Of a stretch of 64,000 bases of DNA, positions 1,738 through 55,539 are shown in pieces (position 1 is the stretch's first letter; every line of letters begins with the position of its first letter). The stretch comes from Phlebopus portentosus (lineage: Eukaryota; Basidiomycota; Agaricomycetes; Boletales; Boletinellaceae), in the NCBI GenBank assembly GCA_037892935.1, contig JAYXKI010000013.1, positions 1,364,001 to 1,428,000 on the forward strand, read 5' to 3'. A program made the translations under genes and the position numbers. The notes under the pieces were generated by a model, which was given only the letters and a program-made list of their open reading frames with translations, made no database searches and was not told the DNA's origin.

Positions 1738-1794
1738 GCATGACTGTATGTAACACATATCATGTTTACTATTGAACATGATTGTCTTTATCGT

Positions 1795-10542: not shown

Positions 10543-10679
10543 ATAGTAAGAGATAAAAAAAAAAAGTGATGTGGCAATGAAGGTAGCTGCTTATAAACGT
10601 GTTCCCAGCTCGCTTACTAGCCCTCCGGAGATCGACGATTCTTAGTCTGTAAACATACACTATCTTCAGATTCAACAGC

Positions 10680-12905: not shown

Positions 12906-13364
12906 TGTAAGGACTCGAACATTTTCCTTTTCCTTTCTTACATTATCATTTATTTTAATATTCTTTTTCCTTTTCTTTTATTTTTCTTATGCGCTTATTC
13001 ATCCATTTGCCAGAACATTCCACAACGTTCTATCACGCTCACTAATCATCCCATTCCTTGTCATGTGACTTTCCATTAGAGTAGACCTTTCCCGTGCTCA
13101 AAGTCTATATAAGTAGATAGTTTGACTCTTTCGTTCCTTGTCTTTCTATTCTACTTACCTTCACTGTGACCTAGGTATCTACTCTTGTATTATTAGTTTG
13201 CTGAATTCTACTTACCTTCACTGCGACCTAGCGTTCGACGGTCTGGACTTAAGCCTTGTCTTAGCTGTCTTGACCTGAGCGACGTGTTTGGGATTATCTC
13301 ATCCATGCTTGTTTGTTGTTGTGTTGGCCTGCCTCGACTCAGTCCTTGAGCTGTCCGCCTAACA
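12906..13364 (+). repeat. 5' LTR of chromovirus E, 459 bp
   Basis: TGTAAGGACT...CCTAACA with a TCTATATAAG box at 13,104-13,113. The 3' third (U5) differs from the A/B/C type and matches D (TGTCCGCCTAACA end), so two LTR subtypes coexist in this window. Confidence 0.9.
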
Positions 13365-13708
13365 TAATAGAAAGACCTACCTCTGGCTCACGCCCGATTC
13401 CGTTGTCGTCGAGCACTCACCTGTGATGTGTCCCCTGAAGTATATCTTCGAAGGATGACATCGAACGAAACCCAGTTCCTACTGTGCAGACAACAAACCC
13501 CTATCTTGCCCGTTGAAGTCCGATTGACTCCGACGTGACCCGATAGTACCCGAAGTATCAACCAATCATATCACCGTGGTGCTCTGAATCACCCTTCTCT
13601 GGAACTCTCATCAAACGCTCTCATGGGTAACACATAGAGTCCAGTCGTCGACTAGCATCTCCTTCATTATCTACCTCGGAGCCTTTCGTTTAGTCGTCAA
13701 TTTCAAAG

Positions 13709-16576
13709 ATGAGCCAGTTATCTGAAGTCAGTCCCGCCCGAACAGCATCCCGATCCCTGTTCCACCCCCAGCCTATCAAGGTGGAGCTAACTGACGAGCA
13801 ACGAGCAGCCCTCCCTGCGAACTCTAGGTGGAGTGCTTCGCGAGGACATTACATCGTCAAAGCAGGAAATCAAGTCTTTGGTGCCTGGTGGGACGAGACT
13901 GCAAAGAGGTGGTACTCCCAGAGGGAAGGAAAGTCCCTCTACTGGAGAGTGAAACAAGAAGGCAACATAGATGAGCCCTCACCCCCTACTCCGACGCAAC
14001 CAACGGCCCCCTTACCAGACCCATCGAACTCGACCACTCAAGCATTGGCTCCCCCTGTCGAGCCTTCACCGGCTTTTGGAAAATTCCGAGAACCAGCGCC
14101 GCTTATACTGAGTGAAGAAGACGAAGAAGAAGAGGAAGAAGAACATGAGATGTCATTATCAAAGGAAGCGATGACTGATCTTGCGACGGCAGTCGCGCTA
14201 GCGCTCCAAGCTGCAGGCGAAGGTGCAAACCAAGGATCAAGGGTGTCGAAGAAGGTCCATATCACTAAACCAAGAGACTTCAATGGCGAACACAATTATG
14301 TGGACTTCAAGTGAGAGCTGCATCTCTACATCTACGCATCTGAGTCAGAGTTCAGGACGAACAAGAGTAAGATTATGTTCGCCCTGTCATACATGAAGAG
14401 TGGTGCTGCGGCTCGCTGGGCAGAAAGTTACACCAGTGGAGCAGTTGATGGAGATGGCAACCTGACGTTCACGGACGGCTGGGACGCCTTCTTGAAGAAG
14501 CTGGACACGTCGTTCGATGACCCCGCCAGATCCCAGAAAGCCTTCAAACGACTAGACGCGATGTACCAAGGAGACCTCAACGCTGATGAGTTCTTCAACA
14601 AGTTTGACATTTGCCGAGTGGACGCTGGCCTAGCAACAGAGGCACATGACAAATGGTTGATGAGTCATCTGAAGAGGGCACTAAACCCAAAGGTTGTCGA
14701 AGGTGTCATGAGATTGCCCAATGAACTGACGTCATATGAAGAGTTCAAGAAGGCTGCCGTCAAGGTCGACAGGGTCGAATGCCAAATCAGGGACCTGATG
14801 GCCGAATGTCGGAGGAAGGCAATTAGTTTGACAGCAATGAAGCCAGCTCCGGTGAAACTCCTGTGCACTGTCTGATAGCTGAGGAGTGTCACAGTTCTTG
14901 GGGGCTGTTCGGTAAGATTAAAACGAGTGGAAAGAGAAGGGTGACTCTTGGAGGGGAAAACTAGAGAAGCGCTGATGCGTCGATCTGGGTTCCAGAGCGG
15001 TTCCGGAAGGGATGGAGGAGAAATGGGATTGAAGGCTGCTGGATGTATGCGAGGGGGGGGGGATTGGATTAAAGGAGATAGGCGAAGAAGCAAGGCGGGA
15101 GAAGTCGAAGCAAGGGGGATTGGCGGTGGCGGTGCGAAGGTAATCGATGTCCTCACAGGTAATCCCTCGATGGATTCGAACCCTGGAGGCGGAAGACGAT
15201 GGGACGAAGCTTAGAGAAGGACTTCCCCTAAGCGCTGACGATTCGAAGGTGATCCCTTCGAGGATCCGACACGATATAACGGGTTACGACGAGTTACGAC
15301 GAGTTTCGGTGGGTTACGAAGCGAAACGGAGCTATACGACGCGGAACGAAGCGATACGCAAGGGACTCAAGTGAGACCTTGCGTAGAGGCGTGGGGAGGA
15401 GAGATGAGGGTCTCTGACTTCAACACGGGTTGAACTGATCACACTGGGCTCGGGTACGACTGCAGAGCAGGAGACTCGAGGCGTATGAGACAGAACTATT
15501 GTGTATTTGTGGGAGATAGAGTCGAGGAGAGTACAGGAAGAGTCGAATTGGTCTCGACTGTAGCTGAAGTGGGTTCAAGCCCGAGCTAAACTGTTTTCTG
15601 CTAAAACTCTCCGGGCTAAAACTGGGCTCCTACTACAAGTTGCTCGCCTATTTATAACTTTGTCCGAACCTGAGCCATCGGAGCGTCAGGGAGCATAACG
15701 AAAGGAAATCGGAAGTGAAAATCATAAGGGAACGCATGGGAACAAGGTACGAGGTGAGCATATCTGGAAGGTGGCGAGATAATGACCATAGAGCATAATA
15801 CGACATGTGAGCGCACACGGAATAATGAGCATAAGAATCATAAGGAACAAAACAAAATATGAACGCATATGGGACTCAAAAGGGGAAAAGCCGGAGTGCG
15901 TCGCGTCGGGTCGAAACTTGGGAGGTGTCGGGGGCCAATTGCGGATCCTTCAATTTACCTCTCGTGCCTGGGTTTAGTAAGACGAGCTAGCTAAGTCAGC
16001 CTTTGTAAGTTTTCGACTGGGTGGCTCGAGCGTCCGAAGGTTCTTCCTACGCAGCGGTCGAGTGCGAGAGGCTACAGTAGTCCGTTCCACTTCGAATCGA
16101 ATCGATCCGCACTGAGTTCCGCTGTTACGATGCTGATCACCGCGGAACACGTGTCACGTGCGCGATCTCGGACCTAGCGTGTCGATGCTTCTTACACCGG
16201 TACCACCAATGAGACATTCTATGCCACCTCAACAAGCAGCTCGTCCTTTCGTACCCCCCGCTCAAGATCGTCGTGATGCCACGGGAGTAACATATGGAGG
16301 CTTAGGACAACCCATGGACATGATGATGAACCAGGCGCATCGTACACATGCTTGTTACAAGTGTGGTCAGGTGGGCCACTACATCAGGGAATGCCCATGA
16401 GGTCATGAAGCGATACGCGCCATCATCGCGGCCTTTGTTCCAGAAGACAGAGAAGCGCTCCTCGAAGAGCTCGGACAAGCGAAGGAATCCTCCTTCGAAG
16501 AGGTCGAGGTCCGAGCAGTGCCCGCTGAGCTAGAAGAATTAGTGGAAGGTGAGGGTTTTCCAGAAGACCAGGCATA
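13709..16576 (+). pseudogene. gag: gag of chromovirus E, interrupted
   Basis: Gag in two pieces, 13,709-14,852 and 16,197-16,576. This copy has an ATG (13,709) where A, B and D have ACG. A TGA at 14,312-14,314 replaces the same Arg codon that is mutated in A, and a second TGA (16,398-16,400) lies just after the zinc knuckle ([14 protein letters not shown]). Removing the insertion with one copy of CCGG restores the frame (MKPAP-VPPMR). The GGGTTTT heptamer is at 16,553-16,559 and the gag stop at 16,574-16,576. Confidence 0.85.
14853..16196. mobile_element. probable solo LTR inserted in gag of E, TSD CCGG
   Basis: A 1,344-bp insertion with TG...CA ends (TGAAACTCC...TTCTTACA), flanked by CCGG on both sides (14,849-14,852 and 16,197-16,200). 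It has no convincing coding frame. A TATTTATAA box near 15,648 and the TG/CA ends point to a single LTR left by recombination of an unrelated LTR retrotransposon. The 4-bp duplication is unusual, since 5 bp is common, and the fifth flanking base differs (T versus A). Confidence 0.55.
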
Positions 16577-17354
16577 GACGTCGGAACGACTGGTCGGTCT
16601 CCTAAAGGACTCTTTTCGTTGGACTTGTTAAAATATAATCATCCTGTTGTACAATATCAAGATGCAAATACCAGTGACGGTTTCACCCTTCGAAAGATCC
16701 TTACCGACGTGCTGCCAGATGAATCTGAAGATGACAACAATGACTTCGAAGTCTATGAAGATTTATTTATCAGAAGAACAGATGCGCAAGCAGGCAAATT
16801 GAGAGAGGAAGAGCGGAATCAAACCACTATAAAAAATGAGGTTGTGGCGGAAGCACCTTACCACGAGAACGTTGTTGCTCAGGCGAACGTCACTGAAGCA
16901 GTGTAGGATGTGGTAGGCAGACGCACGGCTGAGGTATGGCACGAGGGCATTGTGGACGCAGACCAGTTCGTGTGACGGGCGGGAGGAAAAGAGTTGGATG
17001 CCTTCGTTAGCATCGTACACCCAAAGGTAGCAGGTGATGACAAAGTGGACTTGTCAAACCCCCTACTCGAAGAGGAAAACTTCATTGATGCTCATGCACT
17101 GATCAACTCAGGATGCACAGGCTCATGCATCGACGAAGGTTTTGTCAAATGGTATGGTTTCCCCACTCAAAGGTACATTCGGCCTAGACCAGTCTTCAAT
17201 GCTGACAGAACAAGCAACGAGGCTGGATTGATCAAGGAATATGTAGTCATACGAATGTTCTTTGGGAAACACGAGGAAGAGATTCGACTGGCAGTGACAT
17301 CCTTAGCATCAAGCAACATCTTCCTTGGACATGACTGGTTGACGAAGCATAATC
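16557..17354 (+). pseudogene. pol: pol of chromovirus E, N-terminal fragment
   Basis: Pol frame continuing from the -1 slip site. It has ACG rather than ATG at the position of D's pol Met. The aspartic protease region is present, but [10 protein letters not shown] reads [10 protein letters not shown], so the catalytic Asp is lost. Stops at 16,904-16,906 (TAG for Trp) and 16,973-16,975 (TGA for Arg) both fit transitions. Homology ends abruptly at 17,354 inside the protease-RT linker. Confidence 0.8.
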
Positions 17355-17630
17355 GTTTGCTGACAATAGTACATGGGGTGTCCTGGGTATGGCATAGGGG
17401 AGTACAGCCCTTACAGGCCTGTGCCGCTGGACCGGTACAGGTTAGTGTAGCACACTACACCGTCCCCAGCAACTGGGGGTTCCCTTATGCCTGTGGGTGA
17501 TGAGGGATTAGTGAGGATGAGGAGGGAACTGTGGACAAGTGATGAGAACTGCTGTGCGGGGAGATACTGCATACGAAAGACTACTGTCATGTGCATACAC
17601 TCATGTTTCTCTGAGAGATGTTTCTGCAGC
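17355..17630. other. unassigned spacer between E and the terminal repeat
   Basis: No gene recognised. The sequence starts where element E breaks off. It does not resemble the rest of E or the 126-bp repeat, and may be part of element I's interior or another relic. Confidence 0.3.
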
Positions 17631-18334
17631 CCTGGTGGGCACACTCAGTTTGGTTGTAGCAGGAGTGCATGATGGCTGAGCTGACCTTGTTCGCCCTCGC
17701 CCAGATATGATTTTGGGTGACATTTCAGCAGAGGATGGTCACCAAGGTGGTTTCAAGTCTGATTGGTAGATAGTACATGTAATGTAGCCACACCCAAGCC
17801 TAACTCAGCTCAGCTACTGTCTTGGCTGAAAGCGCCTATGCTGCTGTCTTTTTAGCAGAAACAATCAGATTTTTTGGTGTCCGAATGCGTGAGTTATGAC
17901 AGATGCAATGAAGTAGGGGAGAGTTCTGCGAGCAGGAGTGACAACAAACCACCCAGTTTCACTACCACAATCATGTCAGGGTGCCTCGAGGAGTTGCGTA
18001 CAGGTGCCCACTGGGCTGGCCTGATTTATCAAACTTGAATCAGATTTTTCCGGATGACGTTGGGCAAGCTATGATTTTTACACTGAACGGAGGGCATGAC
18101 AAGGATTTAGCACTATGATGCTATCTTTTTAGTAGCGAAGTACATACTCAACAAAACCCAGACATTTTTATATGTACTGGAGCGCATTTTCGAGCAGGTT
18201 TTTTACATGGTTATATCAGATTTTTATGTGCTGTATTGACTGAGATATTCGCTATTTTGTTTTTTTTTGCTCATCCAGGATGCACTATGCGTCAAAAATA
18301 CACGTGATTTTCCAAATTGCCAACAATTTTGCAA
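17631..18334 (+). repeat. right terminal region of a DD34E element (probably element I)
   Basis: Matches the outer part of G' (46,810-47,315) in order: AATCAGATTTTTTGGTGTC, GAATGCGTGAGTTAT, TTGAATCAGATTTTT, GCTATGATTTTTACA, a T-rich run, GCGTCAAAAATACACGTGATT, ending TTTTGCAA at 18,334. It lies in the orientation expected for the right end of element I, whose transposase faces left. No coding sequence seen. Confidence 0.6.
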
Positions 18335-18341
18335 TTAGCTG

Positions 18342-19381
18342 TAAGCAGCGAGAAGGCTAGCTCGATCGGGTTGAAGTTAGGAGAATACGCTGGCAGATAT
18401 TCCAGCCTCATTCCTCTATGAAAAGGGTGAACAAATTTTCAGTAACATACCTGAGAAAAATCATCACCTTTCTTCGACAAGCTCGCGAAGTTCGGGAGCT
18501 TTGTGGATGGCACAATTGTCCATAACAACGACAGACATCGGCGCCGGGAATGGATTCATTTTGACCAGAAGGTCCTCGATGAAAACCATAAAAAGCTCCG
18601 TATTGAACGATCCTTCGACTATCATACATTCCACGATTCCGCTCAGAGATATAGCAGGGAGGATGGAATACCTGAAAGCATGAAAAATGATATAGCGTGC
18701 AGGTAGCTCTGAAAGGTATACCGTTTTCCCCTCGTAAAGACCTGCTTTCGGCATGCGCGAACTCCCTCTAATGCCCATGCTCTACCACGCAAATATGTCC
18801 TTCGATCACACGCACTTTCATCAACGAAAACCAGCTGATCTGGAGAATAATTTGCTCCGATGCGAAGCCGATACTCTGCCCGACGGGACTCATTGCATTC
18901 TTGAGCGTGTTTTGTGATCTATGTTGAAATTAGTGATTTTTTATCAATCCATTTGGATAAGCTACAAATTACCTCCTTCATCCGAAAGCCTGCCCGGTTA
19001 AGAGTTCTCCAAATGGTAGCATCAGATACTCTCACACCGCATCTTTCTTCGAGCGACTGTCTGAGTTCGTCAAGATAGATATCATTGTGACGCATCACTG
19101 TTTTCAATAGAAACTTGTTCCTTGTTAGTTACATCCCCAAGATCACGATTCTTCAGGCGTACCTGGGTATCAGAGAAGTCTAACGCCCTTGGACGTCCCG
19201 ATTTCGAACGGGGTGCAAGACACTCTTCCCCAGTTTGCTTCCAAGCATTCAGGATCCGATACACTGAAGCTCGAGGAACTGCAGTAAGATAAACAATGCC
19301 TTTTACATCTAGACCACAGTTCATGGACATGTGGACGATAACGCGACGTAGGTCATCTGAGATAGGAACCCCGTGCGTCAT
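18342..19381 (-). pseudogene. DD34E transposase of F', C-terminus missing
   Basis: Same exon structure as the intact copy at 28,166-29,336: exons 19,381-19,163, 19,113-18,973, 18,918-18,722, 18,671-18,468 and the start of the fifth at 18,415. It breaks off at 18,342, after the YSPNFNPIE catalytic segment, losing about 45 C-terminal residues. Catalytic residues remain but the protein is truncated. Confidence 0.85.
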
Positions 19382-19540
19382 ACTGGGTGAAAGAAAAGCT
19401 TCAACATTACATTATATTATAATATTCGCGGCAGTGCCGCACGCTTAGTAAGTGTAAGAGCCAAAGCCTATCACCACTTCGTCTTCCTAACACACACACC
19501 TCTCCCTTTACCCCATTTACCACAGTTTGGACTGTTCAGA

Positions 19541-21293
19541 ATGTCTTACGCTTTGCACCTCTCTCAAAGTCGCCCCACCATCATGACACGCGGGCGCGGC
19601 GTCCGCCCACCGGCAGTTGTTTCCCGTGGCGCATCGAAGAAGAATGGTGAGTATCCTCCACGGTATATATTGTTTTGCCCTGTCCCCCTGAGAACGGGCT
19701 CTGTAGATCCTGTTGAGGGTCTGGTTGTCGAGCATAAGAGGATCAAGAGGAAAGTCGAAGAGGATGAGGATGCTCATCCTGACAAAGTAATGGATGTCAC
19801 AAACGTGCTGTGTGATGTCGTTCGCCAACTTCATCAGCATGTCTCTCACCTTGGAAAGAGTTTTGGTGGCTTGGAGGATGTTGTGAACGAGCAACGTGCG
19901 AAATTGCAGGATCATTCCTCAACCGCGAAAAAGGATATCGCCGAGTTGGCGATGGCGCTGTCCGAGACCGTGGAGCATGTTAAGATGCTTGAGGCTTCTT
20001 CTTTAGGGGTAAATGACTCATTCACGTTTAGATGCATCTTTCCTAATAGTCCCTCTTTCTTTTTAGAGTGATGCAGCTACGAGGTTGCTAGATGTTCGAA
20101 GGGCGTATACGAGAGCGCGATTTGATCTAGCGCGTGGTTTTACGCTCGTCCTTCCCAAGTTCTTCACGATCACGGGTTTCCTATCTGAACTGGGATGGGC
20201 GATGCCCGTTAACTTGTGGCACATGTTTTTATTCAAGCTGACCGAGCATTACCGCCGCCACTTTGACGTCGAATCAAAGGCGAACGGGACATACCTGTTT
20301 CGTCCTCGCCGCTCTGTTTTCCACTATCTTTTGGAAGAGGAGCGTTATTCACCCAATGGTCCGAATTTTGGCAGTCTTCCGGACACCACAATTATCGAAG
20401 ATTTTCGATCGGAAGCCATACACCATTGCAACGAAATTGGACGTTTTGACACGGAATCTATCAACGAATTTTTTGATCGCATCATGAAGTTCTTCACCCC
20501 GCTCATAATCTGGGAATATAGCGTGACTAAGAAGGAAATGGAACGAATGGGCATAGAAATGGAATCTCTGAAAGCTGGGCTGGCTGAGCAACGCAGCCTT
20601 GTAGAAACACTTCGTCGTGGTGGTACAGTGGAAGAGGCGGCATCTTCTGTTAGTCAGCAACATTCTCAGGCGGCCCATACCATCAGCGCATTTGGAGGGC
20701 CAGCGCAGCATCTAGGTTCCACGCACGAGGATCAGCAGATCGGACCTGCGATCAACTCAACGTTGATACAACACTTATCTGTAAATGCAGGAGTGTTTGA
20801 GAAGGAAGTTACAAAGCTTCTCGAGAAGCAGCGGAGCCGCGCTCATCAGCTCAATGTTCTTCAGCAGTGCCTGCGGGTGCTTGGCGATAAGAACTTACGG
20901 AATCTAGCAGTATCTGGGTCCACTCGCGTTTACGAACTTATAAAAGCGGGTGCGCTCAAGGTCAAGCTATCCCCCAGTGACCTGGAAGATGCATGGGCCG
21001 CCGTCAAAAAGATCGGGTCGCGAGACGTCGACTTGCAGGAAGTCCTCGATCCCAGCGAAGCTTTCCATGCGACGGAGAAAGTCGAAGTTTTTGATGTTAA
21101 CGAAGATGAAGTTAGTGGAGCCTCGTTCAACGTGGAGAAAGCAATCGATTCGTTCATCGAAGCAGAGCTGAGCGATCACAAGGCGCCGACATATATGGAT
21201 AACCTTATTCTGTTGAAATGGTTGGATTCAGTTAAGCCTGTTCAGACGAATCAGGAGCCGGAAACGACGGGTTCGAAGGCGAAGGCGGCGTGA
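19541..21293 (+). CDS. X1 coiled-coil protein, copy in F'
   Basis: Three exons: 19,541-19,646, 19,707-20,008 and 20,067-21,293, 544 residues. Splice sites GTGAGT/GTAG and GTAAAT/TTAG keep the frame open. See the copy at 29,496 for the description; the two proteins are almost identical (one visible change, Arg/Gln in a shadow frame, is silent or conservative here). The gene is complete although the element around it is truncated at both ends. Confidence 0.75.
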
Positions 21294-23814
21294 GTTGGGC
21301 CAGGGACCATCCAGCGTTGCTTTACAGTCGGAGGCCGAAAGTACTATGGACTATGGACTGGACGATCGCTTGCCCTCCACGGGCGGAATTATGCCCTCTT
21401 CACCTCTCCTTTGTTTTGTTTGGAGGCTGTTATTCGAAAGGATCTCCTCCCGTATTTATATTTGTCTCGGTCTTCTTATGCAGGTACGTTGACCGCTTTT
21501 GCGGCTGTTTGTATATAAAGAGCTTGCTGTGTTAGGTCACTACACAATAGCTCCATTTCCCTTGCCTTGTAGTGCGTGTACAGTAGGAGTCGCTGACTCC
21601 TCTTGTCTCCTATCATAAGTATTCTGTTCTTCTATATGAAATCTACCTCTGTATTTCCCCTGTATGTTGGCACATGTATGGATCGGATTGTACTCTTCGG
21701 TAGCGATGATTCATAGTAGCGATGGTTCGAGTTCCGCCTGCTTTCGTTTGATCAAGAGTTTGCCGTAAGTCGGAATTGTTTTTTGTAGATAGTGGGCTTG
21801 TCTGTGCGAGCTGTGTACTGAGCGATAATGGACACAACGAATTATAGTGAACTGATCTGTTGCTGAGGCTTCTTGGTCTGCTCTGGCTCGAGATACGAAG
21901 ATGAATTTGAAGACGTTGATGGACCTGGCTCCAAAGGCTGCTGTATATTCTCTTCAGAGTGACGACTGGATGGGATAGGTAGTGAAGGGTGGGTACTGAC
22001 CTGTTGGTAATCGAAACTTGCACAGACTCTAATATTCCCACCAAAAAATGATCGTAGTAGAAATGATCGGGTTTTTCTGTCGAAGTACATGAGTTATGAT
22101 GGGTAAGAGGGAGAGAAATCTGCATGTAGGCATGCTAGAGGACTGCCTTTCTCTATGAAGGACACCTCATTGAGCCACAAAACTCACGCATAGATACCAC
22201 CCATCCTTGCATGAATTTACCTGCTTGAATCATATTTTTATGAGCGGTATGTCGTGAGCTACGATTTTTTCACTGTCTGAGGGAGGGGGTTGAGGTACCG
22301 ACTTGATGAGGTTGTCTTTCTTGTACTGCCACTTACACACCACATTGTTTGGAAAATTTTACACCTGTAGAAGCGCATTTTCGAGTGCTTTTTTTACGTT
22401 ATAATAGTATGTCTTACAGCCGTTGCCAAAGTAATGAGAAAAGCCAAAATCACATGATTTTTCACTCGCGTTGTGCCCTCGAAAGGCAAAAATGAACAAA
22501 ACGGCCAATTGCTCACTCAGTATTGCACATTAAGACATACTATTACAACATAAAAAAAGCACTCGAAAATGTGCTTCTACAAATGTAAAATTTTCCAAAA
22601 AATGTGGCATATAAGTGGCAGTACAAGAAAGACAACCTCATCAAGTCGGTACCTCAACCCCCTCCCTCAGACAGTGAAAAAATCGTAGCTCACGACATAC
22701 CGCTCATAAAAATATGATTCAAGCAGGTAAATTCATGCAAGGATGGGTGGTATCTATGCGTGAGTTTTGTGGCTCAATGAGGTGTCCTTCATAGAGAAAG
22801 GCAGTCCTCTAGCATGCCTACATGCAGATTTCTCTCCCTCTTACCCATCATAACTCATGTACTTCGACAGAAAAACCCGATCATTTCTACTACGATCATT
22901 TTTTGGTGGGAATATTAGAGTCTGTGCAAGTTTCGATTACCAACAGGTCAGTACCCACCCTTCACTACCTATCCCATCCAGTCGTCACTCTGAAGAGAAT
23001 ATACAGCAGCCTTTGGAGCCAGGTCCATCAACGTCTTCAAATTCATCTTCGTATCTCGAGCCAGAGCAGACCAAGAAGCCTCAGCAACAGATCAGTTCAC
23101 TATAATTCGTTGTGTCCATTATCGCTCAGTACACAGCTCGCACAGACAAGCCCACTATCTACAAAAAACAATTCCGACTTACGGCAAACTCTTGATCAAA
23201 CGAAAGCAGGCGGAACTCGAACCATCGCTACTATGAATCATCGCTACCGAAGAGTACAATCCGATCCATACATGTGCCAACATACAGGGGAAATACAGAG
23301 GTAGATTTCATATAGAAGAACAGAATACTTATGATAGGAGACAAGAGGAGTCAGCGACTCCTACTGTACACGCACTACAAGGCAAGGGAAATGGAGCTAT
23401 TGTGTAGTGACCTAACACAGCAAGCTCTTTATATACAAACAGCCGCAAAAGCGGTCAACGTACCTGCATAAGAAGACCGAGACAAATATAAATACGGGAG
23501 GAGATCCTTTCGAATAACAGCCTCCAAACAAAACAAAGGAGAGGTGAAGAGGGCATAATTCCGCCCGTGGAGGGCAAGCGATCGTCCAGTCCATAGTCCA
23601 TAGTACTTTCGGCCTCCGACTGTAAAGCAACGCTGGATGGTCCCTGGCCCAACTCACGCCGCCTTCGCCTTCGAACCCGTCGTTTCCGGCTCCTGATTCG
23701 TCTGAACAGGCTTAACTGAATCCAACCATTTCAACAGAATAAGGTTATCCATATATGTCGGCGCCTTGTGATCGCTCAGCTCTGCTTCGATGAACGAATC
23801 GATTGCTTTCTCCA
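21133..23814. repeat. 2.7-kb palindrome formed by F' and the left TIR of F
   Basis: Plus- and minus-strand features mirror each other exactly about position 22,473.5 (for example 21,643-22,125 and 22,822-23,304). The arms include the shared last 53 or so codons of X1 and X2, the 3' untranslated DNA and the terminal repeat. The left arm stops at 22,416, so the central 110 bp belong to the right arm only. Confidence 0.92.
22423..23814. repeat. left TIR of element F
   Basis: Inverted copy of 31,088-32,479 with no length difference. The outer 205 or so bp carry 17 differences from the right TIR, whereas I noticed none in the inner 1.2 kb. The inner end at 23,814 falls inside X2 at codons for GEKAIDSF-like sequence, so the TIR contains coding sequence. 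Confidence 0.88.
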
Positions 23815-25636
23815 GCGACACGCCGTCCTCAACTAAGTAATTGTCCTCCGTAAGAAGCTTATGTGCCTCTTGGAGTTCCTTGGTATGGGTTCCTTCTTCA
23901 GATGCCAGTAAGGTGGAGAAACTATCCGACAGCTCCGGATCACCAGCGAGGCCCTGCTGAGCCGTCTTTAACAACTGCGCGACGTCTTGTAAACACTCCT
24001 CGTAATCCTTGTCATATGGGTGCCTGGCGTGTGCTAGATGGTTCGACGCGATTCTCAATGCCGATGGGCCGGTTACTGCGAGACGACGTATGTTGTTGGA
24101 AAGGAGTATATGAAGACACTTTCGGTACGTTTCGAATTTTTCCTTGGAATCGCCGAGTTCTTCGATAGCCTCTATCCTAGGCTTCAAAATTTCCGCCCGA
24201 CGTTTTACATAACCGAGATAGGTTGAATGTTTAGGATCGGAGGCTGGGACCCGCTCAGGAGGATAAGTGTCGTCGGGCTTGCCAGTGTTTTGAGGGGGCT
24301 TGCCCTCGTCCGGATAAATCAAATGTGCCTTCTGGAGCCCTTCGGCAGCATAACTATGGATTGAGGTCGACATGTCGGGGTTGAGTCGAGGTCGCGGACC
24401 TCCATGTGCGCCACCATCGTCATCCGCCTTTCGCTTTTGTGCTTCACTTCTCTCTCCCTCTCCCTGTCCTACGTCCTCATCGGGGTCCGAGAGCTTCAAA
24501 TGTTCTTCCCATTGAGCTTTCAATTGGCCGAGCCAATGGCGCCAAACATCTTGCTGTCGTAACTCTAGCGCTGTTCCAAGAACAAGTTTGTCTTGAAGGC
24601 CATCTTCATCGCTAGGCTTCTTGGGTACAGCCGCAGTTGCGAACTGTTGGAGCACCTGGGTTAAAGTCCTTTGGGGGTCCACCAGGGCTTGGAGCCAATC
24701 TTCATAGTGCTGGTATAGCTCCTCATAGTACTGCACCTGCCCACTACATTGGATCACGACCTTCTTTTCCTCCGTGTAGGCCCGTATAAATGCTGGCACG
24801 AAGAACTTCAATTGTCTCGCAAGCCAACCTCCCCCATTTTCATCCGGCACACGACCCTCCTCGTCGCAATCTATCTTGGGTTGGATAAGGTCCAGGAGAT
24901 AGCGGCAGAGAAACTCCAAATCTGCAGTGCAGGACACACACTCGAGGGCGGAGTAATTCTGAAACATGCTGTTCCCACTTCGACCGTAATATGACTTCCA
25001 CGTATCAGAAAGGCTGCGTATGAACTTCCACCATATCACTGAACGCTTAAGTGGATCACTACGATCGAGAAGGTTGTGTGTCGAGAATTCATCAGGCATA
25101 AGGGATATGAATCCGTGTGCGACGGCAGAGCGAATGTCATCAAGGTCCCTACGGACAATGATAGCTTGATGGCTTCCCTTGTACTAGGAGCATGGCGGCA
25201 TCAGTAAAAAATGCATCTGAATGTCATGCGCCATGCTCACCCCGAGGGCCTTAAGTTCCAGCATTACCGTTACGTCTATGAGTTGCTCTATCGCCACAGC
25301 TTGATCCCCAATGTCACGTTTGACTATCTCAGTAATACTATCCAGCGCTGTTGAGGTAGCTTTAATCTTGTCTTCCTCCGCCGCAATTCTGCTGGACAAC
25401 GCAGTCATCTTGTTATGCAGGCTGACGACCGCATCCACCGCAGAAACGAGAGTAGAAGCAGAAGCATCTGCACTTTTCCCTTTCTCTCCCAAACTTGACA
25501 TCAATCCATCTCTCTTCTCTATGAGGGCCTTGAGTGCATCTATAACTCTGATTAGTAATGCCATACAGGCAGACATGCAGCATCCCAAATGTCACGTACC
25601 GTCCAATTTGTTATCCTGTGGTCTTGTAGTGTCCAT
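23654..25636 (-). CDS. X2: coiled-coil protein of element F, C-terminus encoded in the TIR
   Basis: Unrecognised family. Exons 25,636-25,600, 25,545-25,241 and 25,183-23,654 give 623 residues; introns of 54 and 57 bp have GTACGT and GTGAGC donors and a TACTAAT branch site in the first. Exon 2 is coiled-coil-like (heptads of Leu/Ile/Val). Exon 3 shares scattered blocks with X1 (VRR...GF, a KFFVP/KFFTP block, CL..L..N.R.LAV.G), and a KRKADDD stretch may be a nuclear signal. The last 53 or so residues, from LEKAIDSFIEAE to GSKAKAA, are identical to X1 because they lie in the TIR. Intron positions match X1, so X1 and X2 are old paralogues. Function unknown. Confidence 0.75.
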
Positions 25637-25887
25637 GAGTGGAGAGGTAGACAGAGATGGTAGGAACTCGATGAACCGTTCTATGTCGAGATGGTGGTAA
25701 GAGGAAGGATAACTCCCGAGTCGAACGCCTTCGCCCGACATAGTAATAGAAGTGACGGCGTTCTCATTCCCAATGATACGGATGTAAGAGAAGAGACGAT
25801 GGTGAAGGACACGTGTATCGCGTGACTCATTTTGATGGAACAGACAAAATGGTCACAATTCGATTTCTCTTTCTTTCCACCACCATC
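25637..25887. promoter_or_regulatory. divergent promoter between X2 and accessory gene
   Basis: 251 bp separate the start codons of X2 (minus) and the AT-hook/SAM-like gene (plus). No clear TATA box seen; it must hold both promoters if the start codons are right. Confidence 0.45.
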
Positions 25888-27949
25888 ATGCTGTCTTCTC
25901 CGAATCAATCTGCGGCAGCGATTGTAGGAGACAAACGCCGACCAAAGCCGTCTCAGAAGATTCTTGATGCAGCTGCCCAAGATGTCCCTATGGTCAAGCG
26001 TGGTCGTGGGCGCCCTCGCAAAGTCGTACCAGAACAGCAGGGCTCAAATGTAGATTCCCGCGTTGACAAAGCCAAAGTATGCTCCTTTTCTTTTGTCTTG
26101 CGCTGGTTTTGACATACTTGTTGCAGCATGCTGTTCAAGCTGTGAAAATTCAGTGTGAGGACAGGACTGGAACTGACAGGGATAGTCAGGTAATGATGGT
26201 CTTATTTTCCACTTTTGTATCTGCTATTTACCGCTTCTGAAGCAACAAGAACGTCATAGAGTGGGGTATTTGAACTCAGAGCTGGGAGGTGCTGTCGTCA
26301 TTACGGATTCCGAGGGAGAAAAAGACGATGAGGTATATTCTTGGTCTCATGAATCTGTTTATGTTCTAATTCTTCCGAAGTTCGTCGTCCAACCTCGCAA
26401 ACTCAGTTGTTTTTCAAAGCTACCTCTCCCATTGGGTCAGGCTAACTCAGCTCCGGAGGTATCCAGGCTCTAAAGTGCGTGGTTTACTTGTTCATGGTTG
26501 CTGATCAAGACTCAAACATAGAAAACTTTTTTACCGTCCTCCGACGGAGGGCCTACTGTTGCCAGTACTTTTGACGGGGAGTTAACGGATGACGTACTTG
26601 CACAAATCCTTGTAGACGGGATAGCGAACTCTACAATCCCTTTGTCCGATTCCGATTTTGAGGAAATTGAAGACGACGGTAAGAAATACCATGCTTCCGT
26701 TGCTGAATGAAATCCAGACTAATTATGATGGAGATAATAATTCACTAGTCTCATTGAACTCGGGTATAGGCAAGAACACATGTCACACCCAAAAGCGGCC
26801 AGGGATCGAAGAAATAAAGGTCAAGGTCCATGACGGACTGGCGGAACGAGTCGTTACCATATCATCTTTGGACAAGCACGTTGACGTTTTAGAGAAGGCT
26901 GCCCAAGCGATGAGGCGACCAAATCATCTTGTTGAGATTGGCTATGAAGCCCCCTGGAGCTCAAAGATAGGGACAAAGATGAGCCTTACATATATTTCCA
27001 ACCCGGATGAACTTACGGAGTTCTGGAGTGCCTATAGGAGGTATGTAAAGGATCAACAGAGCACACGTCGCAATCGCGACCAGGAGATTACATGCGAAAT
27101 AGTTTTTCGCAATATGTTGGACACTCTTCAGGTAAACTACTTTCCAAGAATATGACGATGTTTGCTCAGTAAATTTGCCATAGAGTGCCACAAAGATGAC
27201 TGTCCATGCAGCTGGTGCGTCGAGGGGTCGGCCACCGAAACAGATCGACCCTACATATTCTGCCAGGGACTCAGCCGATGACAAGATCACTCAAGCTACA
27301 AAGAGCATCCAGGCTGCCATGTTTTGTCAAGTGCACAACCGCGTGTGTTATGAGAAATACAATGGTGCTTGTGGTGTTTATACCCCCGATCTCATTTGGA
27401 ACATGCGCAAAAACTCGTGAGTTCCGTGTTTGACTCTCTTCACTTACTGATCTGACAACTGGGCATCATGAGGCACGGCGGGAGTTGCATGTAGTTGCAA
27501 GTAAAATCCCAGAGTCGATGTCGGCAAAATTACTCGACTACAAGAGGCCAGGAAGAACAAATCAAGGGCCGCCTCCTACTGATGGTGGGGCCCGCAGGAT
27601 ACAGGTAGACACGCATGCGGCACCCGTCAGAGTAACACAAGAAATTTCAAGTTCTATGACGCACAGAGGACCACTGAACTACCCGGCTATTGGAGATTGG
27701 CTTAAGGCATGCGAAGATGATTTGGAGCGTGGCAGGGATAACCACGAATACCGCAAGCTGGCACCTGTGTTTTTGAGTAGCGGTTGCACAAGGATCGATG
27801 ATATCGCAAGGATGAATGCAGACAAGATCGAAGCTTTGGTAAAGGCAGAAGGGGTAGATATGACAATTGGACTTGTGAATTGCATTCATGATTATGCAGT
27901 GGGGGACGTTGCTTGTGTCAAGAGGGATGGAAAGTTGTCTGGCTATTGA
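25888..27949 (+). CDS. AT-hook protein with SAM-like C-terminus, element F
   Basis: Eight exons in phase: 25,888-26,076, 26,127-26,189, 26,243-26,332, 26,381-26,458, 26,522-26,678, 26,749-27,131, 27,184-27,416 and 27,502-27,949, 546 residues. Exon 1 has a perfect AT-hook (KRGRGRPRK). A second GRP motif (SRGRPPK) is in exon 7, which also has a possible metal-binding cluster (CQVHNRVC). Exon 6 carries GYEAPWSSKIGTK, shared with element I. The last exon ends in a helical domain (YPAIGDWLKACEDDLERG...) resembling SAM domains and found also in I and J. A DNA-binding or assembly partner of the transposase is an inference from its constant company. Confidence 0.75.
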
Positions 27950-28165
27950 AATGGCGCAGTTATATTGGCTTGCTTCTTTCTCCATTAGTTGTTTGACGTT
28001 TGATGCACGCGAAGTACTCCCTTTCTATCCGTGCACAGTTTCTTTCCTCCTGTCTTTCACTCACTGTATTTAATCCATTTCGGGCTTCAACAGCTCTTTC
28101 TACACATGAAAAATATAAAACTGCTTCAACTGCACTTGTTCATTGAGATCCACGTCAGGACCCCG

Positions 28166-29336
28166 TCAGAGATAGCCTGATTGGTGATAGAAACTTCGAC
28201 AATCCGCCGCAGAGATGCCAAGAGTTTGAAGATATAGGTATTCATAGACAAGAAACTCATCCCCTTCGGGCGGGGGGCTGTGACGGAGATTATGTTTAAG
28301 CAGCGAGAAGGCTAGCTCGATCGGGTTGAAGTTAGGAGAATACGCTGGCAGATATTCCAGCCTCATTCCTCTATGAAAAGGGTGAACAAATTTTCAGTAA
28401 CATACCTGAGAAAAATCATCACCTTTCTTCGACAAGCTCGCGAAGTTCGGGAGCTTTGTGGATGGCACAATTGTCCATAACAACGACAGACATCGGCGCC
28501 GGGAATGGATTCATTTTGACCAGAAGGTCCTCGATGAAAACCATAAAAAGCTCCGTATTGAACGATCCTTCGACTATCATACATTCCACGATTCCGCTCA
28601 GAGATATAGCAGGGAGGATGGAATACCTGAAAGCATGAAAAATGATATAGCGTGCAGGTAGCTCTGAAAGGTATACCGTTTTCCCCTCGTAAAGACCTGC
28701 TTTCGGCATGCGCGAACTCCCTCTAATGCCCATGCTCTACCACGCAAATATGTCCTTCGATCACACGCACTTTCATCAACGAAAACCAGCTGATCTGGAG
28801 AATAATTTGCTCCGATGCGAAGCCGATACTCTGCCCGACGGGACTCATTGCATTCTTGAGCGTGTTTTGTGATCTATGTTGAAATTAGTGATTTTTTATC
28901 AATCCATTTGGATAAGCTACAAATTACCTCCTTCATCCGAAAGCCTGCCCGGTTAAGAGTTCTCCAAATGGTAGCATCAGATACTCTCACACCGCATCTT
29001 TCTTCGAGCGACTGTCTGAGTTCGTCAAGATAGATATCATTGTGACGCATCACTGTTTTCAATAGAAACTTGTTCCTTGTTAGTTACATCCCCAAGATCA
29101 CGATTCTTCAGGCGTACCTGGGTATCAGAGAAGTCTAACGCCCTTGGACGTCCCGATTTCGAACGGGGTGCAAGACACTCTTCCCCAGTTTGCTTCCAAG
29201 CATTCAGGATCCGATACACTGAAGCTCGAGGAACTGCAGTAAGATAAACAATGCCTTTTACATCTAGACCACAGTTCATGGACATGTGGACGATAACGCG
29301 ACGTAGGTCATCTGAGATAGGAACCCCGTGCGTCAT
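28166..29336 (-). CDS. DD34E (IS630/Tc1-type) transposase, element F, intact
   Basis: Five exons, 29,336-29,118, 29,068-28,928, 28,873-28,677, 28,626-28,423 and 28,370-28,166, give 321 residues, a normal length for Tc1-type enzymes. The N-terminal part has two helix-turn-helix-like segments (VKGIVYLTAVPRASVYRIL and DIYLDELRQ...VSDATIWRTL). Catalytic residues: Asp in FVDESACDRRTY, Asp in VVMDNCAIHK, Glu in SPNFNPIE, with 34 residues between the last two. Introns are 49-54 bp. It converges with the accessory gene (216 bp apart) and diverges from X1. No damage seen, so it is likely active. Confidence 0.88.
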
Positions 29337-29495
29337 ACTGGGTGAAAGAAAAGCTTCAACATTACATTATATTATAATATTCGCGGCAGTGCCGCACGCT
29401 TAGTAAGTGTAAGAGCCAAAGCCTATCACCACTTCGTCTTCCTAACACACACACCTCTCCCTTTACCCCATTTACCACAGTTTGGACTGTTCAGA
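29337..29495. promoter_or_regulatory. divergent promoter between transposase and X1
   Basis: 159 bp between the two start codons, containing an AT-rich stretch (TTATATTATAATATTCG) about 60 bp from the transposase ATG that could supply TATA boxes for both directions. F' has the identical sequence at 19,382-19,540. Confidence 0.45.
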
Positions 29496-31248
29496 ATGTC
29501 TTACGCTTTGCACCTCTCTCAAAGTCGCCCCACCATCATGACACGCGGGCGCGGCGTCCGCCCACCGGCAGTTGTTTCCCGTGGCGCATCGAAGAAGAAT
29601 GGTGAGTATCCTCCACGGTATATATTGTTTTGCCCTGTCCCCCTGAGAACGGGCTCTGTAGATCCTGTTGAGGGTCTGGTTGTCGAGCATAAGAGGATCA
29701 AGAGGAAAGTCGAAGAGGATGAGGATGCTCATCCTGACAAAGTAATGGATGTCACAAATGTGCTGTGTGATGTCGTTCGCCAACTTCATCAGCATGTCTC
29801 TCACCTTGGAAAGAGTTTTGGTGGCTTGGAGGATGTTGTGAACGAGCAACGTGCGAAATTGCAGGATCATTCCTCAACCGCGAAAAAGGATATCGCCGAG
29901 TTGGCGATGGCGCTGTCCGAGACCGTGGAGCATGTTAAGATGCTTGAGGCTTCTTCTTTAGGGGTAAATGACTCATTCACGTTTAGATGCATCTTTCCTA
30001 ATAGTCCCTCTTTCTTTTTAGAGTGATGCAGCTACGAGGTTGCTAGATGTTCGAAGGGCGTATACGAGAGCGCGATTTGATCTAGCGCGTGGTTTTACGC
30101 TCGTCCTTCCCAAGTTCTTCACGATCACGGGTTTCCTATCTGAACTGGGATGGGCGATGCCCGTTAACTTGTGGCACATGTTTTTATTCAAGCTGACCGA
30201 GCATTACCGCCGCCACTTTGACGTCGAATCAAAGGCGAACGGGACATACCTGTTTCGTCCTCGCCGCTCTGTTTTCCACTATCTTTTGGAAGAGGAGCGT
30301 TATTCACCCAATGGTCCGAATTTTGGCAGTCTTCCGGACACCACAATTATCGAAGATTTTCGATCGGAAGCCATACACCATTGCAACGAAATTGGACGTT
30401 TTGACACAGAATCTATCAACGAATTTTTTGATCGCATCATGAAGTTCTTCACCCCGCTCATAATCTGGGAATATAGCGTGACTAAGAAGGAAATGGAACG
30501 AATGGGCATAGAAATGGAATCTCTGAAAGCTGGGCTGGCTGAGCAACGCAGCCTTGTAGAAACACTTCGTCGTGGTGGTACAGTGGAAGAGGCGGCATCT
30601 TCTGTTAGTCAGCAACATTCTCAGGCGGCCCATACCATCAGCGCATTTGGAGGGCCAGCGCAGCATCTAGGTTCCACGCACGAGGATCAGCAGATCGGAC
30701 CTGCGATCAACTCAACGTTGATACAACACTTATCTGTAAATGCAGGAGTGTTTGAGAAGGAAGTTACAAAGCTTCTCGAGAAGCAGCGGAGCCGCGCTCA
30801 TCAGCTCAATGTTCTTCAGCAGTGCCTGCGGGTGCTTGGCGATAAGAACTTACGGAATCTAGCAGTATCTGGGTCCACTCGCGTTTACGAACTTATAAAA
30901 GCGGGTGCGCTCAAGGTCAAGCTATCCCCCAGTGACCTGGAAGATGCATGGGCCGCCGTCAAAAAGATTGGGTCGCGAGACGTCGACTTGCAGGAAGTCC
31001 TCGATCCCAGCGAAGCTTTCCATGCGACGGAGAAAGTCGAAGTTTTTGATGTTAACGAAGATGAAGTTAGTGGAGCCTCGTTCAACGTGGAGAAAGCAAT
31101 CGATTCGTTCATCGAAGCAGAGCTGAGCGATCACAAGGCGCCGACATATATGGATAACCTTATTCTGTTGAAATGGTTGGATTCAGTTAAGCCTGTTCAG
31201 ACGAATCAGGAGCCGGAAACGACGGGTTCGAAGGCGAAGGCGGCGTGA
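29496..31248 (+). CDS. X1: coiled-coil protein of element F, C-terminus encoded in the TIR
   Basis: Unrecognised family. Exons 29,496-29,601, 29,662-29,963 and 30,022-31,248 give 544 residues. Exon 1 is Arg/Pro-rich; exon 2 has a basic KRIKRK stretch and then coiled-coil heptads (VRQLHQHVSHLGKSFGGLED...). Exon 3 holds a hydrophobic domain (RRAYTRARFDLARGF...FLSELGWAMPVNLW), a Gln/Ser-rich linker, and a LQQCLRVLGDKNLRNLAVSG block matching X2. The last 53 or so residues are TIR-encoded and identical to X2. It runs outward into the right TIR and diverges from the transposase. Role unknown; being intact in both F and F' suggests selection or very recent copying. Confidence 0.75.
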
Positions 31249-32479
31249 GTTGGGCCAGGGACCATCCAGCGTTGCTTTACAGTCGGAGGCCGAAAGTACT
31301 ATGGACTATGGACTGGACGATCGCTTGCCCTCCACGGGCGGAATTATGCCCTCTTCACCTCTCCTTTGTTTTGTTTGGAGGCTGTTATTCGAAAGGATCT
31401 CCTCCCGTATTTATATTTGTCTCGGTCTTCTTATGCAGGTACGTTGACCGCTTTTGCGGCTGTTTGTATATAAAGAGCTTGCTGTGTTAGGTCACTACAC
31501 AATAGCTCCATTTCCCTTGCCTTGTAGTGCGTGTACAGTAGGAGTCGCTGACTCCTCTTGTCTCCTATCATAAGTATTCTGTTCTTCTATATGAAATCTA
31601 CCTCTGTATTTCCCCTGTATGTTGGCACATGTATGGATCGGATTGTACTCTTCGGTAGCGATGATTCATAGTAGCGATGGTTCGAGTTCCGCCTGCTTTC
31701 GTTTGATCAAGAGTTTGCCGTAAGTCGGAATTGTTTTTTGTAGATAGTGGGCTTGTCTGTGCGAGCTGTGTACTGAGCGATAATGGACACAACGAATTAT
31801 AGTGAACTGATCTGTTGCTGAGGCTTCTTGGTCTGCTCTGGCTCGAGATACGAAGATGAATTTGAAGACGTTGATGGACCTGGCTCCAAAGGCTGCTGTA
31901 TATTCTCTTCAGAGTGACGACTGGATGGGATAGGTAGTGAAGGGTGGGTACTGACCTGTTGGTAATCGAAACTTGCACAGACTCTAATATTCCCACCAAA
32001 AAATGATCGTAGTAGAAATGATCGGGTTTTTCTGTCGAAGTACATGAGTTATGATGGGTAAGAGGGAGAGAAATCTGCATGTAGGCATGCTAGAGGACTG
32101 CCTTTCTCTATGAAGGACACCTCATTGAGCCACAAAACTCACGCATAGATACCACCCATCCTTGCATGAATTTACCTGCTTGAATCATATTTTTATGAGC
32201 GGTATGTCGTGAGCTACGATTTTTTCACTGTCTGAGGGAGGGGGTTGAGGTACCGACTTGATGAGGTTGTCTTTCTTGTACTGCCACTTACACACCACAT
32301 TGTTTGGAAAATTTTACACCTGTAGAAGCGCATTTTCGAGTGCTTTTTTTACGTTATAATAGTATGTCTTAATGTGTAATATTGAGTGAGCAATTGGCCA
32401 TTTTGTTCATTTTTGCCTTTTGAGGGCACGATGCGAGTGAAACATCATGTGATTTTGGCTTTTCTCATTACTTTTGCAA
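31088..32479. repeat. right TIR of element F
   Basis: Mirror of 22,423-23,814. It contains the last 53 or so codons and stop of X1, 3' untranslated DNA, and a terminal block with TTGAATCATATTTTT, GAGCTACGATTTTTTC, GAGGGCACGATGCGAG and CATGTGATTTTGG, the same order of motifs as in G, G' and the region at 17.6-18.3 kb. An inward-facing frame of 160 codons in each arm lacks outside support. Confidence 0.88.
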
Positions 32480-32491
32480 ACAGCCAGCTAA

Positions 32492-33888
32492 ATGCAAAAA
32501 ACCTGAGATTTGGGGTAATCACGTGTGTTTTTTGACACATAGTGTGCCCTGAATGAACAAAAAAGAACAAAATAAATGGTCGATTTCTCTGTCAATATAG
32601 CACAAAAAAATCTGATATTGCCATGTAAAAAAACTACACAAAATTGTGCATCTGTACATGTAAAAATATCTGAGTTTTGTTGCATCTGTGTAGCAGAACA
32701 AAACAGATAACATCGAAAGACTAAGTTCTTGACCTTGTCCTTCACTGAATGTAAAAATCATAGCTTGCCCAATATCACCTGTAAAAATCTGATTCAACTG
32801 TGATAAATCAGGCCAGCCTAGTGATCATCTGTTTTCAACTTATTGTGGCTCCTCGACATGCATTCATGATAAAACTAGACAGTCTGTTGTCTCTCCTGCT
32901 TGTAATTCTCTCTCCTAGGCCATTGTAATTGCTATAACTTATGCATTCAGACACCAAAAAATCTGATTCTCTCTGCTAGAAAGGTATGCTAATGGGTGCT
33001 TTCAAACAGAATTATCATTGAGCTGGATAGGCCTGAGTGCAGCTGCATTACATATTTCATTCTATTATATAGGCCCGAAACTACTTTCACCCTGCAACTA
33101 TCTTTCTCCAAAACATCACTTGCTGACATATCTAGGCCATTCAGTTCTCAAATCAGGTCAGAGAATTGGTTCCATTATGTATTCCCTCCTCAGGAAAGTC
33201 GAAAGTGGTCACTAAGATAAAGACGTAACTCATAGGCCCAAGTAGCAGAAGGATAGTCTTTGAATAATATACAATGGCCCTCATGCAACTCCTATCACTC
33301 ATTCAGACCTCTGAGGCCCCTCACCTCTCCCCTTGTCCATGCGAACAAAATCTTGAAAGTTGAAAGTAGCCGATGCTACACAATATAAGAACACAGGTTC
33401 GTCGTTCTTTGTAAGCATGAACAGCACTCTAGATAGTGAATGCCTTGATCTGGCCACCAACATCCTACTTACCAGCTCAGAGCATCCCTGTTGACACAGA
33501 CGATGACAGTAAATGGCCAGTCACTGTTGTTGCTTTAAAACTAGAGTGCAAGGGCCCCGGGGAGGGCATGCATAGATTCATATTGCCAGGCCTGAGCATA
33601 TGTCAATGTAGATTTTGAATCGGATGTCAGACGTTACAGTAAATTAACAGAACTTCGAGAATGCAACTGCAGATACAATAATAAGTATGTGATAAGGGGT
33701 GCCATCGGTATGAGTGAGCAAAGTGAGAAAAGAAGAGGAGACTGATGTGCATGATGTCACTTGTTTCATGTGCCATACTCACAACTTGATCTTTAACTAT
33801 CACCATCCCAGATGTAGGTGGCTTATCGATGTTATCCGAACTATCATTCTGAAGTCCATGGTCCAGCTTTCGAATGAGCGTACCTTTA
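32492..33888. repeat. left terminal/subterminal region of element G
   Basis: Shares the ordered motif set of the F-type TIRs (AATCACGTGTGTTTTTTGAC, GCACAAAAAAATCTGAT, ATGTAAAAATCATAGC, AAATCTGATTC). Short frames here are mirrored in G' and come from the repeat. No gene supported. Confidence 0.6.
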
Positions 33889-35087
33889 TGTCTTATCAAC
33901 AGTGCAGCAGAAGACTTTTCAATGACCTACAAGAATGCATTGTCACCATGAACAAGAAGTTTAGCGTGTCTGAGATTGCAGCTTTGACTGAGCTTTCGAG
34001 AGCAATAGTTTTCTGGGTAATACAGGAATTCAAGTGCAACGGGACTGTTGCTACACAAAGTCTTAGTTTTCATAGAGGACTAAGGGCCCTCAATTATGAC
34101 CATACCTAGGTTTGCCATATACCTAATCCAATACTAGTTGTCTATTGGCTGACACTGTCTAGTTCCTCTGTGGGTCATTGGGCAATCGTAATAACTGCTA
34201 TATTGACGAGCTGAAGAAGCTTCTGCAGGAAATATAGGGAAAGAAAGTTTTGGACTCAACTATATGCAGGACTTTGCTGTGCACCGGCTTCAGATTAAAG
34301 AAGGTAATCATCTCTTTGCTTCCCTATGCATTCTGTGCAATTAATCAAATCCTGGTCATCTAAATATCAAAGAGGGCTGTTGAGTAAAGTGAGACCCTTC
34401 GTATGCAGTATGTTTCATATATAGATTCGTAGTATGCAGCAGAACAGTCAGTGTTTGTTGATGAGAGTGCTTGTGATTGACGGACTTTTCTCTGTGATAC
34501 TGCTTGGGCTCTTGAGGGTCTCTGTGCTTGTCAAAAACAGTTCTTCAACAGGGGTAAATAGTGAATATAACTTTTGCAACTCAGTGTAATTTTCTGATAC
34601 ATTCTGCTCAGCTTCTCTGTCCTGTCAGCTATCAGTCTCGATGGTATGATCAATTGCTCTGTCGTGGAGGGTGCCTTCAATACATGGTTGTTCATGGAAT
34701 TCATTGCCAGTCCATTGGACAAAATGAATCCCTTCTCTGCTCCTTGGTCCATTATCGTGATGGATAACTGCCTGATACATAAAGCCCCTCAGATTCAAGA
34801 ACTTATTGAATCATGGTCAGTCTTATATAAGAGATACTGAGAGCAGCATGTACTGACCATCACATAGAGGTGTCAGACTGGAGTTTCTTCCTCCTTATTC
34901 TCCTGACTATAATCCAATCGAGCCTGCATTTTTTATGTTGAAATCTAGGCTCAAAAGGCAGAGGCCTTGGAATCAGGATAATGCCTCGATTATTGAGCAA
35001 CTCTATGTTCAGGTATATTGTATCAGCTCTGTGGATAGCTATTCATTCTTCTGCCACTGTGGATATGATGTGCCAGTGTTTATATAA
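33889..35087 (+). pseudogene. DD34E transposase of element G, decayed
   Basis: ATG at 33,889 opens a helix-turn-helix region (MNKKFSVSEIAALTELS). Later parts lie in several frames separated by introns: a block with CYIDELKKLLQEI then a TAG, VFVDESACD-like residues, VMDNCLIHKAPQIQELIES (34,757-34,820) and YSPDYNPIEPAFF (34,895-34,935), ending at TAA 35,085-35,087. DD34E spacing is kept, but at least one in-frame stop makes it inactive. Confidence 0.75.
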
Positions 35088-55497: not shown

Positions 55498-55539
55498 TAA
55501 TTTGTATTGCAATGCGAAGCAGGCGCAAACAACTAGTTT

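Follow-up and report, generated by a model that had tools for sequence, protein, structure and literature searches.

A probable multi-gene IS630/Tc1-type transposon with partly coding terminal repeats in a fungal genome

Elements of the IS630/Tc1 group are textbook one-gene transposons. In the literature surveyed, the multi-gene elements of Tc1/mariner type that come nearest to the case described here are the Tec and TBE elements of ciliates. Tec elements of Euplotes belong to Tc1/mariner, with a DD34E transposase, three open reading frames (ORFs) and repeats of about 700 bp (PMC7325037). TBE elements of Oxytricha have three ORFs and repeats of about 80 bp, and their two extra genes, of unclear role, are under selection (PMC4724952, PMC7325037). 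Repeats of several hundred bases were also described for Minos and some others (PMC7325037). Here, we analyzed a 64,000-nt stretch of fungal DNA, termed the window (C13:1364001-1428000, contig JAYXKI010000013.1, of a 38.4-Mb genome in 23 contigs), and within it a 10-kb element, F. With four genes and 1.39-kb repeats, F differs from the typical Tc1 plan of a single gene and short repeats. Coordinates without a contig name are positions in the window, C1, C7, C12, C13, C15, C16 and C18 are contigs, and L followed by three digits marks labelled genome loci.

We consider it likely that F is a copy from a lineage of multi-gene cut-and-paste transposons that belongs to the IS630/Tc1 group, occurs in Hymenochaetales and carries a conserved, probably oligomerising DNA-binding helper protein. 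F is real, and the multi-gene branch that it represents in this well-known superfamily of transposons is probably undescribed. A literature search, with Repbase and most subscription papers outside its reach, found no description of this gene set; the first-pass annotation, likewise, could not match F to a described family.

Structure and genes of element F

The arms of F (22423-23814 and 31088-32479) are inverted repeats of 1,392 bp each with 98.8% identity, and a chance origin of repeats this long is excluded. All 17 mismatches were found in the outer 190 bp, while the inner 1,203 bp showed no difference. The genes form two divergent pairs, with the transposase and the accessory gene tail-to-tail at the centre. 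Equal repeats and symmetric layout were thus as first annotated; the boundaries 22,423 and 32,479, taken as exact at that time, had to be moved. Comparison of the F ends with other copies revealed that the family terminus is CAGC straight after TA, which places the left end at 22417 instead of 22423 and the right end at about 32484. The family ends have the form CAGC(T/C)..TTGCAAAA beside TA, and their tips read CAGCCGTTGCC... A TA was found next to five of the seven family ends read, one of these five starting TAGC; the exceptions were the right end of F and the old copy L028. The left end of F is a clean TA|CAGC within the repeat arm of another F copy. Comparing 15 arm sequences among the duplicated segments described below, the right arm on C13 was found to be a composite of two types. 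The features of F and of the adjacent partial copy are as follows.

18342-22416, plus strand: older partial F copy (right half) with the end of the transposase gene, X2 and the repeat as far as the TA; its left side is truncated by the end of another transposon (18341)
22415-22416, no strand: target dinucleotide TA of the left end, lying in the arm of the older partial F copy (junction 22416/22531)
22417-23814, plus strand: left terminal inverted repeat, starting CAGCCGTTGCCAAAG... (earlier arm start 22423); codes for the C-terminal 52 residues of X1
23654-25636, minus strand: X1 gene, 621 residues, exons 25636-25600, 25539-25241 and 25183-23654; C-terminus within the repeat
25888-27494, plus strand: accessory gene, 404 residues as its Sanghuangporus sanghuang counterpart splices, with candidate AT-hook, PB1-like part and Cys/His cluster; exons 25888-26076, 26127-26189, 26243-26332, 26381-26458, 26522-26678, 26749-27131, 27184-27416 and 27473-27494
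27473-27948, plus strand: accessory-family exon with the SAM-like part; at the splice used by the relatives, its frame does not match that of the exon before it
28166-29336, minus strand: IS630/Tc1-type DD34E transposase, 321 residues, exons 29336-29118, 29068-28928, 28873-28677, 28626-28423 and 28370-28166
29538-31248, plus strand: X2 gene, 550 residues, exons 29538-29963 and 30022-31248; paralogue of X1
31088-32484, minus strand: right terminal inverted repeat; outer end without TA, outer 108 bp differing from the left arm at 8 positions

The transposase carries the catalytic residues D153, D237 and E272, the latter two separated by 34 residues. It scored 110.2 bits against Pfam DDE_3 (curated cut-off 28.6) and 177.3 bits against NCBIfam IS630 (cut-off 100), and was also above the cut-off for HTH_32. 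DDE_3, the DD34E spacing and a helix-turn-helix DNA-binding part place the predicted protein in the IS630/Tc1/mariner group. A sequence search of the PDB with the transposase gave a single match (E 0.47), which was treated as chance.

For X1 and X2 the lengths of 544 and 623 residues given before were corrected to 621 and 550, with X2 starting at the ATG at 29538 or, with 564 residues, at that at 29496. X1 differs from ACEPAF_8835 of S. sanghuang at 3 of 621 residues. In the annotation of that species, ACEPAF_8835 (X1) and ACEPAF_8836 (accessory) are adjacent locus tags. X1 and X2 are paralogues, with 41% identity across 194 residues (shared tail included) and 22% across a further 273. Their final 52 residues are identical because both tails are encoded in the repeats, and the likeness falls immediately past the repeat edge, still within the coding sequence. 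With X1 as query, relatives in the protein database were found only in S. sanghuang and S. baumii. In the genome, all of the at least 37 X1 and at least 40 X2 matches were located in elements with F repeat sequence as compared by eye, and none away from F-type elements. The match farthest from such sequence, at C1:2201685, was 14 kb off, and the X2 gene there appears split.

The accessory gene, spliced like its counterpart, encodes a protein identical to ACEPAF_8836 in 404 of 404 residues. Together with the X1 match, this identifies the host as S. sanghuang, a medicinal bracket fungus, or as a close relative of it. Compared to its relatives, the reading frame shifts between 27372 and 27416, just upstream of the SAM exon, and the annotated S. 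sanghuang product therefore terminates at 404 residues. An alternative splice could keep the frame. Of the four cleanly spliced genes proposed initially, the transposase with 321 residues was recovered as such, while the 546-residue accessory protein was not, and F can no longer be called intact. The complete family protein is predicted to combine an AT-hook, a PB1 fold, a Cys/His cluster and a SAM fold; both the PB1 beta-grasp and the SAM helical fold were present in the predicted structure. The RGRP core of the candidate AT-hook was invariant in an alignment of eight sequences, with a Pfam AT-hook score of 14.1, below the cut-off of 17.4.

The accessory family as a transposase partner

The accessory family is common to several element families and is more interesting than the single copy F. 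A genome search identified 33 SAM-type accessory matches outside the F-type ones. A listed transposase match was found no more than 3 kb away for 28 of them and no more than 12 kb away for 31. Two arrangements became visible, 13 convergent pairs at 0.6-0.9 kb, as in F, and 14 same-strand pairs at 2.5-2.7 kb. The first-pass annotation had named routine occurrence of the extra genes as host genes, away from the transposase and the repeats, as an argument against its reading. The accessory gene is indeed common outside F, but it was found beside related transposases and not as a host gene.

A single-sequence protein search with the accessory protein yielded 8 relatives, one each from S. baumii and S. 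sanghuang and six from Schizopora paradoxa. The latter aligned across the conserved parts with 32-39% identity. All 8 belong to Hymenochaetales, S. baumii being placed by its genus. Using an alignment as query, 4 proteins were found, two of them additional (P0011, P0012). These searches reach relatives sharing exact words, and the alignment search scored the 7,995 top word-sharing candidates. A scan of viral contigs matched 24 stretches, none of which was confirmed.

Further pairs were observed outside F. A third family is represented at 54596-55893 of the window by a transposase and an accessory gene in convergent orientation, and eight other places carry accessory matches nearly identical to it. 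The related family E (1-18341, nested with retrotransposons; L032-L035) carries transposase copies in both inverted arms and an accessory gene on the same strand, about 2.5 kb from one of them. Its inverted transposase matches are 7.2-7.5 kb apart at four loci and up to 47 kb elsewhere (paired by position only). At L030 and L031, transposase/accessory pairs stand between inverted pieces of Gypsy-like retrotransposons which mimic terminal repeats. A reading of these loci as two-gene elements, with terminal repeats of 1.4 kb and 0.6 kb, was rejected, because those inverted repeats match repeats that recur throughout the window; by eye, they resemble what we take to be Gypsy integrase/chromodomain sequence.

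Copies and rearrangements

The partial copy at 18342-22416 matches 28297-32371 of F with 99.93% identity, forming direct repeats of 4,075 bp. It stops exactly at the TA about 114 bp into its repeat, where F begins, indicating that F inserted into the repeat arm of another F. The end of family E at 18341 truncates the partial copy on its other side. Directly right of F, at 32485-35073, another element end (CAGCTAAATGC...) was found with its own transposase relic (34163-35066). Related palindromic elements of about 1.07 kb carry TACAGCTAGTTGCAAAA-type ends on both sides (L033 1907-2995, L034 98-1184), with many such pairs among the listed loci, and have TA on both sides by the search pattern used.

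Near-identical F copies were found on C7, C12, C13 and C15 (two), and a half copy on C16. Their flanks are shared, as over 20,001 bp with 99.86% identity on C12, and so are the neighbouring transposon relics. Judged by these sequences, they represent one duplicated chromosomal segment and not separate insertions. On C7 the interior of F is inverted relative to its flanks (L012-L013), and C15 has a tandem row of two F copies with a part copy (L009-L011, C15:196800-226799). Both arrangements, as well as the identical inner 1,203 bp, would be explained by recombination between the long arms; assembly error at long repeats may be an alternative source. C16 was considered as a clean empty site and rejected as evidence for the ends of F, its outer repeat haplotype being like the far F end of C7, C12 and C15 and not like the partial neighbour. 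Loss of the sequence between the direct repeats of 4,075 bp by deletion explains it better.

An independent, diverged copy starts at C12:1124743 and runs upward, with its own flank and TA. It holds X2, transposase, accessory gene and X1 in the order found in F, which supports the initial proposal of a multi-gene DD34E element. In the 13 kb read, its second arm and a short part of the interior were not found, with no separate match to F positions 1-2315 and 4101-4704. In the old F copy L024 (C12:1123500-1133499), C-to-T or G-to-A changes relative to F accounted for 552 of 633 differences in a 5.4-kb stretch and for 191 of 334 in a 1.8-kb stretch. In the longer stretch 49% of the CpG cytosines were changed, compared to 6-21% in other contexts. 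This decay pattern fits a methylation-linked process or one like repeat-induced point mutation in a hymenochaetoid fungus. It was not seen in F, and the F insertion is therefore probably recent relative to that process.

Short solo copies of 120 bp (query 15–133) were tried as a separate short transposon. This was rejected, since all six were outer F ends followed by the end of another element at the same TA. Of F, these six loci (L018-L023), identical in the sequence read, carry no more than the outermost 114-120 bp of one end. The TA is the same as that used in the F-into-F insertion, which suggests a favoured site.

Interpretation and relation to described elements

If F is a copy of such a multi-gene lineage, its transposase would bind and cut the CAGC ends, while the candidate AT-hooks of the accessory protein may coat A+T-rich subterminal DNA. 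The PB1 and SAM modules, as oligomerising parts, would bring the distant ends of the 10-kb element together. Helper proteins join distant ends in some other large DNA transposons. X1 and X2 may act as additional, lineage-specific helpers. Recombination between the arms would keep them identical and could flip the interior, with the parts of X1 and X2 outside the arms free to diverge. An F with a broken accessory gene would need the full protein from elsewhere, or would work without the SAM part.

We are aware of several observations that weigh against the helper-carrying lineage. The frame shift was present in all five near-identical copies with an accessory gene (window, C12, C7 and both on C15, one of the latter without the outer 114 bp). 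In these five the GVYTPDLI frame breaks before EHAQKL; the S. baumii protein and the old copy on C12 have it unbroken. The accessory gene is thus either dispensable, or the five copies are dead or helped in trans. Since the near-identical copies all lie within one duplicated segment, the present mobility of F is unsupported, which weakens the earlier suggestion that it may still be mobile. No target duplication on both sides was seen for any F copy; F was the one copy read at both ends, and its right end is without TA. The accessory model as a whole reached a predicted template-modelling score (pTM) of 0.27, and Foldseek alone gave no match for it at E 0.001 or better. X1 is predicted to be all-helical in a model of low confidence, too weak for a fold search. 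The close pairing with transposases has to be read against an expectation of about 1.25% within 3 kb for uniform placement, which is too low for transposon-dense regions, and the 33 accessory matches are partly non-independent, several lying in duplicated segments.

A wider generalization can be offered only tentatively. A new IS630-derived group of mushroom transposons might combine the transposase with an AT-hook/PB1/SAM protein which polymerises on subterminal DNA and synapses the far ends. Its elements could then reach 10 kb or more, and up to 47 kb if the inverted transposase pairs, recognised by position, are single elements. Genes or parts of genes would be located within their long repeats (the C-termini of X1 and X2 in F, the transposase genes in E), and through arm recombination paired proteins would stay identical at one end and diversify at the other.

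The main alternative to the helper mechanism, which we regard as rather doubtful, is that the extra genes counter host silencing, with the AT-hook/PB1/SAM protein altering the chromatin of the element instead of assisting transposition. It is compatible with the identity proposed for F. Chromatin proteins, too, can contain SAM and PB1 modules, and the C-to-T/G-to-A decay of the older copy, strongest at CpG, makes methylation-linked silencing likely. A role of this kind was argued for captured TET/JBP genes (Kojima 2025; PMC12730594). However, no enzymatic domain was found past the Pfam or NCBIfam cut-offs in the accessory protein, X1 or X2 (X2 in one of the scans), and tight pairing with the transposase is equally expected of a transposition helper.

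It is unlikely that F is an ordinary one-gene Tc1/IS630 element with captured passenger genes, in which accessory protein, X1 and X2 have no role in transposition. The related ISY100 transposase is the only protein required for its element (PMC2170065), the accessory gene is broken in the youngest F copies, and X1 relatives were found in only two Sanghuangporus species. Passengers, however, would not be expected to stand beside related transposases in 28 of 33 cases and in two conserved arrangements, nor to share conserved parts with Schizopora proteins at 32-39% identity. Finally, the long inverted repeats could have arisen by segmental duplication or palindrome formation in a repeat-rich region, in which case the 10 kb with its 1.4-kb repeats would not be a transposition unit. 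In favour of this, the F locus belongs to a set of five near-identical duplicated segments, which have palindromic junctions and come in inverted or tandem variants, C16 is best explained by a deletion, and no other copy was found to carry both arms elsewhere than in the duplicated segment. We consider this origin highly improbable, as diverged copies with other flanks all start directly after TA at one base, have the repeat arm in common (C12:1156450, C18:827709, C1) and keep the gene order at C12:1124743.

If the lineage consistently carries a DNA-binding oligomerising partner, it would provide a multi-component case of IS630/Tc1 chemistry outside the ciliates. Two proteins and two DNA ends would suffice to test such a case. 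In the protein tails encoded by the repeats, gene conversion between inverted repeats can be followed as in a natural experiment, and the accessory family may serve as a search handle for fungal elements now annotated only as hypothetical proteins.

With one-gene IS630/Tc1 elements (ISY100, Minos, fungal Tc1-like elements) F shares the transposase family, the DD34E spacing and the TA target, while those usually have one gene in about 1.3 kb. Fungal transposons carrying TET/JBP genes (Kyakuja, Zisupton, Plavaka and others) are, like F, multi-gene elements of mushrooms with a recurrent accessory gene (PMC12730594). They belong to other transposase superfamilies; the word "mariner" is absent from the main text of that paper, and neither "mariner" nor "Tc1" occurs in the accessible part of a review of giant transposons (PMC6431247). 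By Pfam, no TET/JBP, kinase or site-specific recombinase domain was found in the F proteins. TBE elements resemble F in combining a Tc1/mariner-type transposase with further genes, but their repeats are short with telomere-like tips, and their zinc-finger and kinase domains were not found in F. Tec1 and Tec2 share with F a DD34E transposase, further genes and very long inverted repeats. In contrast to F they contain a site-specific recombinase, whereas the repeats of F are about twice as long and code for the ends of two paralogous proteins, in another gene set and another host kingdom. F resembles the ciliate Tec elements in plan rather than in gene content.
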